A stretch of DNA of 50,675 bases from Bacteroidales bacterium. Its GTDB lineage: Bacteria > Bacteroidota > Bacteroidia > Bacteroidales > UBA7960. Of this stretch, positions 187-49,961 are shown in pieces. Position numbers and translations under genes: made by a program. The notes under the pieces are model-generated. The model searched no databases. It saw only the letters and a program-made list of their open reading frames with translations, and was not told the origin of the DNA. Within the stretch, counting starts at the first letter, position 1, and each line of letters opens with the position of its first letter. Location: the NCBI GenBank assembly GCA_007118495.1, contig SKRM01000043.1, positions 1 to 50,675 of the forward strand. The letters are read 5' to 3'.

Positions 187-2217
187 TTACTGACCCAGAT
201 ATCGATCCAGCCAGTTGTAGAACTCCTCATACCAATAAATTGAATTCTGGGGATTCAGTATCCAGTGGTTCTCGTCGGGAAAATACACCAGACGCGCATC
301 CAGACCCATATTCTTGTAAATATTGTAAACCATAAATCCATGTGCCACAGGTACACGGTAGTCTAATTCACCATGGATAACCAACATGGGAGTGGTGAAG
401 TTATGGGCAAACTGTGAAGGGTTGATGGCATTCACCTGATCGAAGTTTTCCCATGGCGACCCACCGTACTGATACATGCGGTTGGCCGAATAGTCAGAGG
501 CAAACTGCAAATGAAGGTCGTATACGCCTGCATGGTTAATGAGGGCGGCAAAGCGGTCAGTATGTCCTGCGATCCAGCTTACCATATAACCACCATAGCT
601 TCCACCAGTGGCTGCCATACGGGTTTCATCAACCAGGTCGCGGTCAATCATATAGTCTACAGCTTTCATGATGTCTCTGAATGGAAGCTCAGAATGGTTG
701 CCGTGGATGCTTTGCACAAAGTCCTGGCCAAAACTGGTTGAGCCGTGGAAGTTGGGCAGAATGGCAATATATCCGGGAGCGGCAAACAACTGGCTGTTCC
801 AGCGGAAGTGGAAAGTGTCGCCAAAAATTCCGTGGGGGCCGCCGTGTATCATAACCACCAAGGGGTATTTCTTGTTTGGGTCGTAGTCGGGTGGGTAGTT
901 GATGAACATTTGTATATCAGCTCCATTGGCGCCTTTATAGGTTACGTTTTCAATTTCGCCCCAATGAATGTATTCAACCAGGTGGTCATTGAACCCGGTC
1001 ATTTTGGTGAGGTCGCCGTTGCGCATGTTCAGTTTGTAAATTTCCGGGGGGGCGCTCAGGTTATTGTGTGAAAAGACCATGTGGCGGATGCCTGCAAGTG
1101 AAGCTCCGTTATTGGTGCCACCTCTGAATATTTCTGTGTGATTGCCACCGCGGGCAGGAATACTGAAGATTGACTTCATGGCACGGTCTTCAGCTATAAA
1201 ATAAATGGTACGGCCATCTTCAGACCAGAACCATTGTTCTGCGTCCAGGTCAATATCTGCGGTAAGTTCGGTACGTGATCCGGTTTGGGTATCGTAGAGA
1301 ACCATGATGACCTTATCGGCATAGAAATGATAGATTGTTTGTTTTCCATACAAGATGTATCGTCCATCAGGGCTATATACCGGATTGGAATCATTGGCCG
1401 GATTGTCGGCTGTTATGTTTGTAAGCCGGCCGCTTCCATCGGTGGGCACCAGATAAATTGCATGGTTAAGCCTTTCATAGGGCGGTTTTGTTGAGTTCTT
1501 ACTTACGGCTATGGTCTGGCCATCGGGTGAGATATCGTACGATACCCCGCCCATTAAGCCAAAGAAATTACCGTCGTCTGGCATCAGATCTACCACTTCT
1601 TTGGTATACAGGTCAAGGGTAAACAACCTTGATACATGTCCGTCAGTAAGCCAACGGTCCCAGTAGCGGTACATATTGTTTTCTGTAACCTTTGCAGTGA
1701 CTTTGCTTTCGCCCATTCTTTTCTGTAATTGCCTGTGGGTGTCCCAGTCACCATTGTAATCTGGTAATACATTGGCTGCAAAAGCTATGCGCTTTCCGTC
1801 AGGGAACCACTTAAGTCCGTAGACGCCTACTGGCAGATCGCTTGCTTTACGTGCTTCACCACCAGCAAGGTCGAGAATATACACCTGACCTGGTCCTCCA
1901 TGCCGACGAGAGACAAATGCAAGTTTTTTCCCATCAGGGCTCCAAGCCGGTCCGCTATCCCTTCCACTGAAGGTAATCTGGCGCAAGTTGCCGGTTTCGT
2001 TGTGCATCAGGTAAAGGTTGCTGGCAGAGGTATTGCCCTCAACATCATATGATGTTACTGCAAACACAGACAAGGCCCCATCGGGTGAAACGACCGGATT
2101 GCCAGGTCGCTGCATCTCCCAGAGGGTTGTGGGATCAATCGGTCTTTTGTTCTGTGCATTGACAGTATGCAAGCCACAGATAAAAAGAATCAGAATAATT
2201 AAACTGTACTTTTTCAT
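187..2217 (-). CDS. Secreted S9 family prolyl oligopeptidase / acylaminoacyl-peptidase-like serine peptidase
   Basis: A 676-residue exported serine peptidase expected to cleave short peptides in the periplasm. The start at 2217 is preferred over an upstream in-frame start because it gives a clean signal peptide (MKKYSLIILILFICGLHTVNA). Residues ~30-400 are WD40/TolB-like beta-propeller repeats carrying SPDG motifs (WSPDGKKLAF, YSPDGRYILY). The C-terminal alpha/beta-hydrolase domain has the catalytic triad Ser540 in GGSYGGYM, Asp619 in GELDYRVP and His651 in DENHW. The family (S9B/S9C, DPP IV and acylaminoacyl peptidase) is clear; the exact specificity is not. It stands alone and is transcribed divergently from the epimerase gene at 2340. 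Confidence 0.9.
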   Translation of the reverse strand: MKKYSLIILILFICGLHTVNAQNKRPIDPTTLWEMQRPGNPVVSPDGALSVFAVTSYDVEGNTSASNLYLMHNETGNLRQITFSGRDSGPAWSPDGKKLAFVSRRHGGPGQVYILDLAGGEARKASDLPVGVYGLKWFPDGKRIAFAANVLPDYNGDWDTHRQLQKRMGESKVTAKVTENNMYRYWDRWLTDGHVSRLFTLDLYTKEVVDLMPDDGNFFGLMGGVSYDISPDGQTIAVSKNSTKPPYERLNHAIYLVPTDGSGRLTNITADNPANDSNPVYSPDGRYILYGKQTIYHFYADKVIMVLYDTQTGSRTELTADIDLDAEQWFWSEDGRTIYFIAEDRAMKSIFSIPARGGNHTEIFRGGTNNGASLAGIRHMVFSHNNLSAPPEIYKLNMRNGDLTKMTGFNDHLVEYIHWGEIENVTYKGANGADIQMFINYPPDYDPNKKYPLVVMIHGGPHGIFGDTFHFRWNSQLFAAPGYIAILPNFHGSTSFGQDFVQSIHGNHSELPFRDIMKAVDYMIDRDLVDETRMAATGGSYGGYMVSWIAGHTDRFAALINHAGVYDLHLQFASDYSANRMYQYGGSPWENFDQVNAINPSQFAHNFTTPMLVIHGELDYRVPVAHGFMVYNIYKNMGLDARLVYFPDENHWILNPQNSIYWYEEFYNWLDRYLGQ

Positions 2218-20855: not shown

Positions 20856-20954
20856 GTTGGGCACGTCGTTTTGCTCCGTGCAGTTAGGCCCCCGGCTTCG
20901 CTGTTATGCCCTCGTTGCGCTCGGGCAGGTTTGCTCGGCGCGGAGCGCCTCGCG
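20856..20954 (+). repeat. Cluster of intergenic hairpin-repeat units (locus A)
   Basis: Four units in tandem, each beginning GTT. Unit 20856-20882 has arms GCACG/CGTGC. Unit 20883-20902 is short (20 bp), with GCC-CCC-GGC then TTCGCT. Unit 20903-20928 has arms GCCC/GGGC around TCGTTGCGCTC. Unit 20929-20954 has flank GTTTGCTC, core GGCGCGGAGCGCC (a perfect 5-bp stem with a 3-nt loop) and tail TCGCG. The same unit design recurs at 30353-30409, 33031-33053 and 49785-49961. The block is much more GC-rich than the AT-rich sequence after it. Confidence 0.8.
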
Positions 20955-29624: not shown

Positions 29625-30353
29625 ATGAATAATGCTCCCTTGTACACGTTATCGATTATAATTCCTGTTTTTAACGAGGAAAAAACCGTCTCCCTCATCC
29701 TAGATAAGATTATTGAGGTTGACCTGGGCCTGGTAAAAAAAGAGATTGTTGTGGTGAATGATTGCAGCACTGATGAAACTCAAGGGCTGGTGCAGCAGTT
29801 TATGAATAAATATCCGCAAGAAAACATCCGCTTGGTTGAGCAGCCCCACAATGAGGGCAAAGGCGCGGCTCTCCACAGGGGTATCAGAGAGGCCACCGGT
29901 GATTTCATAATTATTCAGGATGCAGACCTTGAATATGATCCCCGTGAATACCAGGATCTGCTTAGCCCTGTTCTTGAGGGCAATGCAGATGTTGTGTATG
30001 GGTCAAGGTTTATCGGTTCACGTCCTCACCGCATCCTTTTTTTCTGGCATACTGCCGGAAACAAATTCCTCACCTTTCTTTCGAATGTGTTTACCAACCT
30101 GAATCTTACTGACATGGAAACATGTTACAAACTTTTCAAGGTAGATATTCTTAAAAGCTTGAAGCTGAAGGAAAAACGTTTTGGTTTTGAGCCTGAGGTT
30201 ACGGCAAAAGTTTCACGTGTACCAGGGATCAGGATATTTGAGGTTGGGATTTCATATTATGGGCGGACATTTGAAGAGGGGAAAAAGATTAACTGGAAGG
30301 ATGGTTTCAGGGCGATGTATTGTATACTGAAGTATAATATCTGGGCACGATAG
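29625..30353 (+). CDS. Family 2 glycosyltransferase (dolichyl/polyprenyl-phosphate sugar synthase-like)
   Basis: A 242-residue GT-A fold enzyme. It shows LSIIIPVFNEEKTV at the N-terminus, VVNDCSTDET, the DxD metal motif DADLEYDP, and VYGSRFIGSRPHR. This pattern is typical of DPM1-type enzymes that load a sugar on polyprenyl phosphate. It has no C-terminal membrane segments. The ATG at 29625 is used; ATG 29610 and TTG 29580 are in frame. A small hairpin (CCGGC-AAG-GCCGG, 29591-29603) lies just upstream, which favours the later start. The next gene encodes a GT-C-like membrane protein that could use the lipid-linked sugar. Confidence 0.88.
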   Translation: MNNAPLYTLSIIIPVFNEEKTVSLILDKIIEVDLGLVKKEIVVVNDCSTDETQGLVQQFMNKYPQENIRLVEQPHNEGKGAALHRGIREATGDFIIIQDADLEYDPREYQDLLSPVLEGNADVVYGSRFIGSRPHRILFFWHTAGNKFLTFLSNVFTNLNLTDMETCYKLFKVDILKSLKLKEKRFGFEPEVTAKVSRVPGIRIFEVGISYYGRTFEEGKKINWKDGFRAMYCILKYNIWAR

Positions 30354-30409
30354 TTAGCTCGGCCTTGCAGGCCTCGCGGTTAGCTCAGCCCTGCGGGCTT
30401 CGCAGTTAG
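30353..30409 (+). repeat. Two tandem hairpin-repeat units (locus B)
   Basis: Two exact-length 26-bp units begin at the last base of the GT2 stop codon. Unit 30353-30378 has flank GTTAGCTC, core GGCCTTGCAGGCC and tail TCGCG. Unit 30379-30404 has flank GTTAGCTC, core AGCCCTGCGGGCT and tail TCGCA. A trailing GTTAG (30405-30409) starts an aborted third copy. Both cores are perfect 5-bp stems with a TGC loop; two stem positions changed on both sides so that pairing is kept. Confidence 0.85.
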
Positions 30410-33030: not shown

Positions 33031-33053
33031 CAAACGCGGCGAAGCCGCATAAC
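33031..33053 (-). repeat. Single short hairpin-repeat unit (locus C)
   Basis: Read on the minus strand: GTTAT (33053-33049), core GCGGCTTCGCCGC (33048-33036, a perfect 5-bp stem with a TTC loop), then GTTTG. It matches the GTTAT/GTTTG junctions of loci A and D but lacks the GCTC and TCGCG parts. It lies in the 46-bp gap between the GT-C-like and GT2 genes. Confidence 0.65.
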
Positions 33054-47372: not shown

Positions 47373-47399
47373 TGTTTGATTGTTTTTTCAAAGATAGTT

Positions 47400-47430
47400 A
47401 AAAACAAAAAGCCCGGCGGTGAGCCGGGCT
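47400..47430 (-). terminator. Intrinsic terminator of the TonB receptor gene
   Basis: AGCCCGGC (47410-47417) and GCCGGGCT (47423-47430) form a perfect 8-bp stem. On the minus strand it is followed by TTTTTGTTTTT, a good U-tract. It lies between the receptor stop (47525) and the polA start (47372). Confidence 0.85.
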
Positions 47431-47524
47431 TCATCCATTAACCAAAACAACATGAAGAGAAACTAAATGTGGGTATTTACAATTCCAATTCGGCTAATCT
47501 GGAACAAATAGCGTGCCAAACATT

Positions 47525-49765: not shown

Positions 49766-49784
49766 TCTTTTTTAGATTTGGTCC

Positions 49785-49961
49785 TCGGCTCTGCCTCGGA
49801 TAGTTTGGTAGCGCGAAGCACTGTAGTTTGAAAGTTGTGCAGCTTCACTGCTTGGCTCGGCGCAGGGCGCCTTGCGGTTATGCCCTCGCTGTGCTTGGGC
49901 AGTTTGCACGTTGCGCAGCAACATGCGCGTTGGCCCGGCCCTGTGGGCCTGGGGTGTTTGG
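49785..49961 (+). repeat. Long cluster of hairpin-repeat units (locus D)
   Basis: This fills most of the gap between the His-rich gene and the TonB receptor. Clear units: 49851-49876 (flank CTTGGCTC, core GGCGCAGGGCGCC, tail TTGCG); 49877-49901 (GTTAT, arms GCCC/GGGC around TCGCTGTGCTT); 49902-49928 (GTTTGCAC, core GTTGCGCAGCAAC, ATGCGC); 49929-49955 (GTTGGCCC, core GGCCCTGTGGGCC, TGGGGT). The part before 49851 holds decayed copies (GTTTGGTA with GCGC-GAA-GCAC; GCAG-CTTCA-CTGC). Three cores are perfect 5-bp/3-nt hairpins. It may also separate the two minus-strand genes transcriptionally. Confidence 0.8.

Follow-up and report, generated by a model that had tools for sequence, protein, structure and literature searches.

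The closest described counterparts of the repeats considered here are the REP, BIME and REPIN sequences, which the available text of three sources describes as imperfect intergenic palindromes of 20-40 nt with a short 5′ tag and with hairpin-bulge-hairpin forms (PMC3733652, PMC6006769, PMC3116915). Most families with the GTAG tag can, according to PMC3733652, be divided into sub-families that have alternative, complementary stem residues, so compensated stem covariation is not in itself new; in most genomes a head-to-tail layout of these GTAG repeats is given as absent or under-represented. The same text reports CGTC-tagged REPs, including the neisserial dRS3, from the Bacteroidetes among other phyla and without a dedicated transposase, and genomes with REPs yet without the gene, as well as atypical structures in Bacteroidetes, are mentioned in the available portion of PMC6006769. 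There is no settled account of how REP-like palindromes originate, how they spread and how their shape is maintained, and the CGTC repeats are reported without a dedicated transposase (PMC3733652, in part). A further kind of small repeat, the heptamer direct repeat TAACTGA, is described as intergenic, patchy and common to distant bacteria (PMC4679880, in part). No account of arrays such as those described below was found for the Bacteroidota in the literature outside subscription journals.

Hairpin units of the window

The window, which is the whole 50,675-nt stretch of DNA that was analysed, belongs to a Bacteroidales genome of 2.63 Mb (78 contigs, 98% complete). A Pfam family was found in 34 of the 38 window proteins scanned (complex I, RuvB, RecO, DNA polymerase I, glycosyltransferases and others). 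As had been anticipated for transposase and CRISPR genes, the Pfam scan found no transposase, integrase or CRISPR protein among these 38, and no Rfam family matched the window at the gathering score. Hairpins with a 5-bp stem, a 3-nt loop and at least four G/C per arm occur 14 times in the window, and six of them fall within 384 bases (0.06 expected).

The original prediction had described, at four places, a modular unit in which conserved flanks enclose a perfectly paired core. Its seven perfect cores are all present, with the stems GGCGC (two copies), GGCCT, AGCCC, GCGGC, GTTGC and GGCCC, and hairpins were found at each of the four places, but the GCTC/TCGC flanks are missing at 33036-33048 and the unit as described thus stands at three (Table 1). 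The copies were also said to lie strictly between genes, which holds in the window apart from the GTTA tag of the unit at 30357-30377, which begins at 30353 within the stop codon (TAG) of the upstream gene and overlaps it by one base. Elsewhere in the window, a terminator-like hairpin is located at 47373-47524 between the genes for a TonB receptor and DNA polymerase I, and similar adjoining sequence (TTGGTT..ATGGATGAAGCCCGG) is seen in two genus mates (L149, L157).

Table 1. Hairpin units of the window, and hairpins that flank Y1 genes at two loci of relatives
Sequence	Position	Strand	Feature	Support
Window	20861..20881	+	Unit, 5+2 bp type, GCACG-TC-GT-TTT-GC-TC-CGTGC; GTT before, AGTTA after	
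Window	20886..20902	+	Degenerate unit AGGCCCCCGGCTTCGCT, flanked by GTT spacers	Weak covariance-model match, E 0.43
Window	20908..20926	+	Unit, 4+2 bp type, GCCC-TC-GT-TGC-GC-TC-GGGC	
Window	20933..20953	+	Unit, 2+5 bp type, GC-TC-GGCGC-GGA-GCGCC-TC-GC	Core-blind flank search, covariance model
Window	30357..30377	+	Unit, 2+5 bp type, GC-TC-GGCCT-TGC-AGGCC-TC-GC	Core-blind flank search, covariance model
Window	30383..30403	+	Unit, 2+5 bp type, GC-TC-AGCCC-TGC-GGGCT-TC-GC	Core-blind flank search
Window	33036..33048	-	Lone plain hairpin GCGGC-TTC-GCCGC, GTT tag on minus strand, without TC/TC mismatch	
Window	49782..49800	+	Atypical unit, TCC-TC-GGC-TCT-GCC-TC-GGA	
Window	49855..49875	+	Unit, 2+5 bp type, GC-TC-GGCGC-AGG-GCGCC-TT-GC	Covariance model
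Window	49882..49900	+	Unit, 4+2 bp type, GCCC-TC-GC-TGT-GC-TT-GGGC	
Window	49906..49926	+	Diverged unit, GC-AC-GTTGC-GCA-GCAAC-AT-GC, mismatch no longer TC/TC	
Window	49933..49953	+	Diverged unit, GC-CC-GGCCC-TGT-GGGCC-TG-GG, TC/TC mismatch gone	
L286 (G091)	1189-1448 and 1956-2019		Hairpins either side of Y1 gene	
L283 (G314)	1086-1390 and 1930-2198		Hairpins either side of Y1 gene	

Architecture, pairing and covariation

The unit is a hairpin of about 21 nt that consists of an outer stem, a 2x2 mismatch in which TC faces TC (TC/TC), an inner stem and a loop of mostly 3 nt. The stem is split 2+5, 5+2, 4+3 and similarly, with about seven base pairs in total. When the sequence of the internal loop was left unspecified in the search, TC/TC made up 53 of the 162 hairpins with a 2x2 internal loop and the next class only 7, a dominance that points to one architecture behind both unit types that had been distinguished earlier; the 'second unit type' with the arms GCCC/GGGC does exist, but as the same architecture with the mismatch merely shifted along the stem. 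The stems are drawn from about eight words (AGCCC, GGCGC, GGCCT, GGCCC and GGTGC, more rarely GGCAC, GGTGT and AGCCT), some words are perfect palindromes (for example GCCGTCGC-TT-GCGACGGC) and a few have perfect stems of 8 bp. Pairing, mismatch and, roughly, total stem length are constant while the stem letters vary. Inversion or exchange of the core by a copying mechanism, as had been proposed, is not supported in that form: the words are discrete and not freely exchanged cores, and the TC/TC mismatch, which a simple perfecting of palindromes would erase, is retained.

The seven cores of the original prediction had been picked by their pairing, which is circular, and pairing was therefore re-tested with the cores ignored. 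The pattern GTTNGCTC-N13-TYGC has 13 matches in the whole genome and none when reversed; as read from the match list, 11 of these flank-selected cores are fully paired (one with wobbles), one pairs at 4/5 and one is unpaired. With fixed flanks and a free 13-nt core, 34 units with GTT on both sides were found in 386,865 bases of the genome, of which 31 pair at 5/5, two at 4/5 and one at 3/5 (wobbles allowed), and the same bases in reverse gave none. A looser scan for GTT-tagged hairpins gave 132 matches against 69 in reversed sequence, and its list thus includes chance matches.

Among 31 distinct units, which are related copies whose cells are not independent events, 98.2% of cells are paired compared to 84.7% in shuffles, and an intergenic repeat family with conserved flanks and compensated stem changes, as first proposed, is thereby upheld. 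Five of the seven base pairs are altered on both sides, and the covariation score is 0.456 against 0.211 in shuffles, with none of 500 shuffles reaching it; the count of pairs altered on both sides is by itself unexceptional (equalled in 87 of 500 shuffles). The paired-core pattern recurs in two further lineages, in different spacer DNA. The genus mates G019 and G016 have GTTNGTC-core-TCCRGTT at 32 places, and family f75 (G120, G223, G314) has TTKGCTC-core-TCGYG at 22 places; five or more consecutive pairs are formed at 29 and 20 of these, respectively, with zero matches to the reversed pattern in either set. These loci were partly selected by model or similarity, and their counts are confirmatory and do not constitute independent discovery.

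The strand opposite TC/TC presents a tandem GA/GA mismatch, and the TNC triloops (63 of 108) read as GNA on this GA strand. GA/GA mismatches and GNA loops make DNA hairpins unusually stable. In DNA folding the GA strand gains only 0.3-0.5 kcal/mol in each of the five words tried; for five words the z-scores are modest, and the predicted folds lack both outer pairs of the 2+5 type and the inner stem of one 4+2 word. RNA folding predicts the outer pairs of 2+5 words in most units.

Arrays and their distribution among genomes

The covariance-model search of the genome, which had been suggested as a check, revealed a family larger than first noted: there are at least 79 matches at E 1 or better and at least 77 at E 0.01 or better, spanning 20 contigs, and these counts are lower bounds from the scoring of 150 of 640 first-look candidates. 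A unit finder that demanded at least one GTT per unit and sought the TC/TC mismatch type recorded 135 units in 32 arrays within 723,028 bases, one array being the contig-end overlap of another. Nine of the stretches (about 153 kb) came from contigs that lacked model matches, and these held zero units; most of the others were picked since their contigs had such matches. The densest stretch seen is L030 (C52), with five arrays in 20 kb, or six when a pair of plain hairpins is counted. Within an array, 97 identical bases are shared by L245 (C18, 3403-3499) and L029 (C50, 6899-6995), at or near contig ends, so that arrays seem to break the assembly and the copy number is probably underestimated.

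The largest array has nine units joined head to tail by GTT spacers, and GTT occurs in all 91 spacers of up to 12 nt, mostly as GTTA, GTTG or GTTT. Neighbouring model matches within 160 nt are on the same strand in 42 of 43 cases, the sole opposite pair being on C61. The two array ends are bounded by GTT in 30 and 31 of the 32 arrays, which is partly built in by the tag that the finder required. A conserved short tag beside a folded hairpin, with GTT at both array ends, would be expected of attachment or recombination sites of another system (dRS3-like phage sites, integron-like hairpins or the sites of another recombinase). Integron attC boxes are inverted, AAC...GTT, at the foot of the hairpin. 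In the present units both flanking GTTs are on one strand, a search of a viral contig collection with two GTT-tagged words gave zero matches, and the window proteins include no candidate integrase or transposase; attachment sites are accordingly a very improbable explanation.

The order of words within arrays was compared with within-array shuffles, omitting L245 as the contig-end overlap of L029. Recurrent two-word successions number 56 against 37.7 in shuffles (18 of 3000 as high), and two word classes alternate, same-class neighbours being 20 of 80 where 32.5 are expected (5 of 5000 as low). Only 4 of 101 neighbouring pairs consist of identical words, and a single run accounts for three of these; the number is not significantly below that of the shuffles (mean 5.7), and simple tandem slippage is unsupported.

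Mosaic arrays of this kind could also be formed by template switching without a dedicated enzyme, wherein replication forks would stall at hairpins, the new strand would fold back and copy one arm from the other, and jumps between arrays through the shared micro-homology of GTT and hairpin would shuffle the words. Such a process would explain coupled changes of both arms in a single step and the lack of a detected transposase; the perfect palindromes resemble TC/TC words with the mismatch repaired, and short degenerate repeats are plentiful in the intergenic DNA nearby. Fold-back copying should, however, erase TC/TC, which nevertheless dominates the 2x2 loops, and 118 of the 135 units are of the mismatch type, though this is the type that the finder sought. 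Adjacent identical words, the product expected of slippage, are few, albeit not significantly below shuffles, and words that are identical, loops included, in another bacterial family (AGCCC/GGGCT and GGCCT/AGGCC) are left unexplained. Because the mismatch is kept, template switching alone is weakened and is considered rather unlikely.

The distribution of the units among relatives is patchy. Under strict filters, and with the scoring of 18 candidates in each genome, the model matches 6 of the 393 genomes searched in the order (the genome of the window, G019, G120, G223, G091 and G278, the last with a single weak match). The spacer phrases differ by genome, GTTAGTC...TCC being found in G019, GGTTATTCGT-like decamers in G120 and G223 and GACATTAGGTG-like phrases in G091, and the GGCGC/GCGCC and AGCCC/GGGCT words sit within these unlike phrases. 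At one orthologous site of G120 and G223 the hairpin is identical while spacers and neighbouring repeats differ, the compared regions having 75% identity overall. In the gap upstream of the TonB receptor gene, which carries hairpin arrays in the genome of the window, differing sets of hairpins were seen by eye in G019, G016 and G014. Plain degenerate short repeats, such as TTGGCTATTGGC, TTTTCAAC and CATCCGCGT, occupy the same gap in G008 and other genus mates (L150, L148, L158). No empty site with exact boundaries was seen at the few orthologous sites compared.

Matches to the exact flanks occur in 42 of 59 genomes (that of the window included), in numbers near those of the reversed-pattern control, and among 22 foreign matches picked by hand from the list, none pairs at 5/5 and two pair at 4/5; the exact unit of this species is thus not genus-wide. 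A DNA similarity search with one array recovered only the genome itself and G120 among 197 genomes. The word GCTCAGCCC-N3-GGGCTTCGC was found across genome contigs in 51 stretches, most in GC-rich DNA, and most of these are probably chance matches, that of G120 being real. In Rubrobacteraceae (L075, L100, L105, L121), which belong to another phylum, the word GCTCAGCCCTTCGGGCTTCGC stands in a TCAGCA-rich stretch with CAGCAC before and TTGTCAGC after, a layout that resembles the arrangement of phrase plus hairpin. In Proteobacteria (L108, L110, L116, L117) the same hairpin word has CCTCACCCG on one side and a CCCTCTCCC motif on the other, in what seems to be a different dispersed repeat.

Arrays are intergenic except for five that overlap ORFs of uncertain reality. 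Both neighbouring genes were called for 22 arrays, and these genes are co-directional for 13 arrays, convergent for 5 and divergent for 4; the corresponding numbers among all 297 gaps of at least 30 nt are 176, 35 and 86, and convergent gaps show at most a mild excess of arrays. Replication-strand bias was not seen: of 26 arrays on contigs with at least 15 kb of sequence, 14 show positive GC skew on the GTT strand. Of the 13 arrays in co-directional gaps, 10 have the GA strand as the coding one, which would suit hairpins that act in mRNA (stability, processing or translation) through their GA/GA and GNA strand. The frequency of GNA triloops, the small but uniform folding advantage of the GA strand and the hairpin kept at the orthologous site of two species amid differing spacers are in line with such an RNA-level element. 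Yet 10 against 3 is just suggestive (about p 0.09, two-sided), the gene-gap context adds at most the mild convergent excess, no such array was seen by eye in the 260 nt upstream of NuoE at 19 genus-mate loci, and copy number and words vary freely. A role at the RNA level is on this evidence improbable.

Transposase association and likeness to known systems

The suggested link to a Y1 (RAYT-like) transposase was not borne out for the genome of the window, in which a Pfam search did not find Y1_Tnp, a gene in an assembly gap being possible. Y1_Tnp is present in 38 of 58 relatives searched and in 7 of 20 genus mates, and is absent from the genus mates G014, G016 and G019, which carry such hairpins; among eight genomes compared it occurs in G120, G223, G314 and G091 and is lacking in G019, G016, G014 and G278. 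The 12 Y1 loci of the four positive genomes (37,314 bases) have zero model matches at E 1. Two of the 12, L283 (G314) and L286 (G091), have other hairpins with compensated 5-bp stems (TCCCC, ACCGC, TGCCC, ACCCC) and 3-nt loops (TAC/GTA), including eight copies of ACCGCGTAGCGGT at 26-nt spacing in L286. Variable yet paired stems can thus occur together with a Y1 gene in this order, which does not tie the units described here to one.

The explanation given most weight, at about an even balance of probability, is that the units are REP-like, non-autonomous palindromes that were spread in single-stranded hairpin form by an enzyme which recognised their shape and which is now lost or of another kind. 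REP-type single-strand copying fits the retention of TC/TC and stem length under changing letters, the patchy spread and the mosaic arrays. The hairpin would be the form that is copied: DNA that becomes single-stranded during replication or repair would expose hairpin and GTT tag to recognition by shape, possibly by an enzyme of the Y1/HUH kind that acts on single-stranded DNA, and copies would be inserted at or beside GTT-rich DNA. Compensated stems would persist since shape alone would matter, and new stem words could arise and spread. The enzyme may since have been lost, or may be of a kind outside the search, and the arrays may now be mostly rearranged by recombination with each other; a cellular function would not be required.

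This REP-like reading is supported by core-blind pairing in three lineages, covariation at five of seven pairs, TC/TC dominance, shared strand, mosaic order and patchiness, and the compensated hairpins that flank the Y1 genes at two of the 12 loci serve as a positive control for it. It is opposed by the lack of Y1_Tnp in the genome itself and in G019, G016 and G014, by the 12 Y1 loci without a unit, by the absence of a GTAG/GTGG tag, by head-to-tail arrays without replication-strand bias, by modest DNA folding, and by the lack of an empty site with exact boundaries at the few sites compared. A repeat system that is built of words and has no transposase of its own, copied by shape between sites and bacterial families, is a tentative alternative. 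Here the constant TC/TC and total stem with free letters would define words that are slotted into the spacer phrase of each genome, the two word classes alternating, and copying would proceed through a host replication activity or an undescribed enzyme family.

About eight words of the same type share flanks in one genome and have look-alikes in other genera and families, so that the predictions of shape-guided copying, of selection and of template switching differ and can be tested, and the units are a good test case for the spread of tiny repeats.

Set against GTAG-tagged REPs, the units share the occurrence as many short, imperfect intergenic palindromes, a paired foot followed by a small bulge and a second stem (2+5, 4+3 and 5+2 around TC/TC in the units), and sub-families with alternative complementary stem letters. 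They differ in having GTTN where REPs have GTAG or GTGG 0-2 nt 5′ of the hairpin, and in the lack of a cognate Y1 gene flanked by the repeats, such a gene being undetected in the genome itself and units absent from the 12 Y1 loci. BIMEs and REPINs are inverted pairs, in contrast to the head-to-tail, single-strand mosaics of the units. Because these defining features fail, the units are not filed as REP. The CGTC-tagged REPs are alike in being reported without a dedicated transposase and in the Bacteroidetes, but as described in the available part of PMC3733652 they have a terminal CGTC tag, a stem of 8-9 bp and a CCA tail, whereas the units lack CGTC and CCA and most of their stems are interrupted by the mismatch. 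Integron attC sites differ by their inverted boxes. Cyanobacterial small dispersed repeats (SDR) are hairpin-like mobile repeats of very small size (21-27 nt), and the likeness to the units lies in this general description, in another phylum. The TAACTGA heptamers share the patchy intergenic occurrence, and the opposite strand of the unit spacer is rich in NAAC, but the available text of PMC4679880 describes plain repeats and no hairpin words. The hairpin arrays at the Y1 loci L283 and L286 resemble the units in their 5-bp stems, 3-nt loops and compensated letters, and in the 26-nt tandem of L286; they differ in their TAC/GTA loops, in that no TC/TC was seen, in the lack of GTT spacers and in their tie to a Y1 gene. 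They may be compared with the 'atypical secondary structures' of subclass 2.6 (PMC6006769, in part). Hairpin families of similar form, with and without a link to Y1, thus occur in one order and provide a natural comparison.
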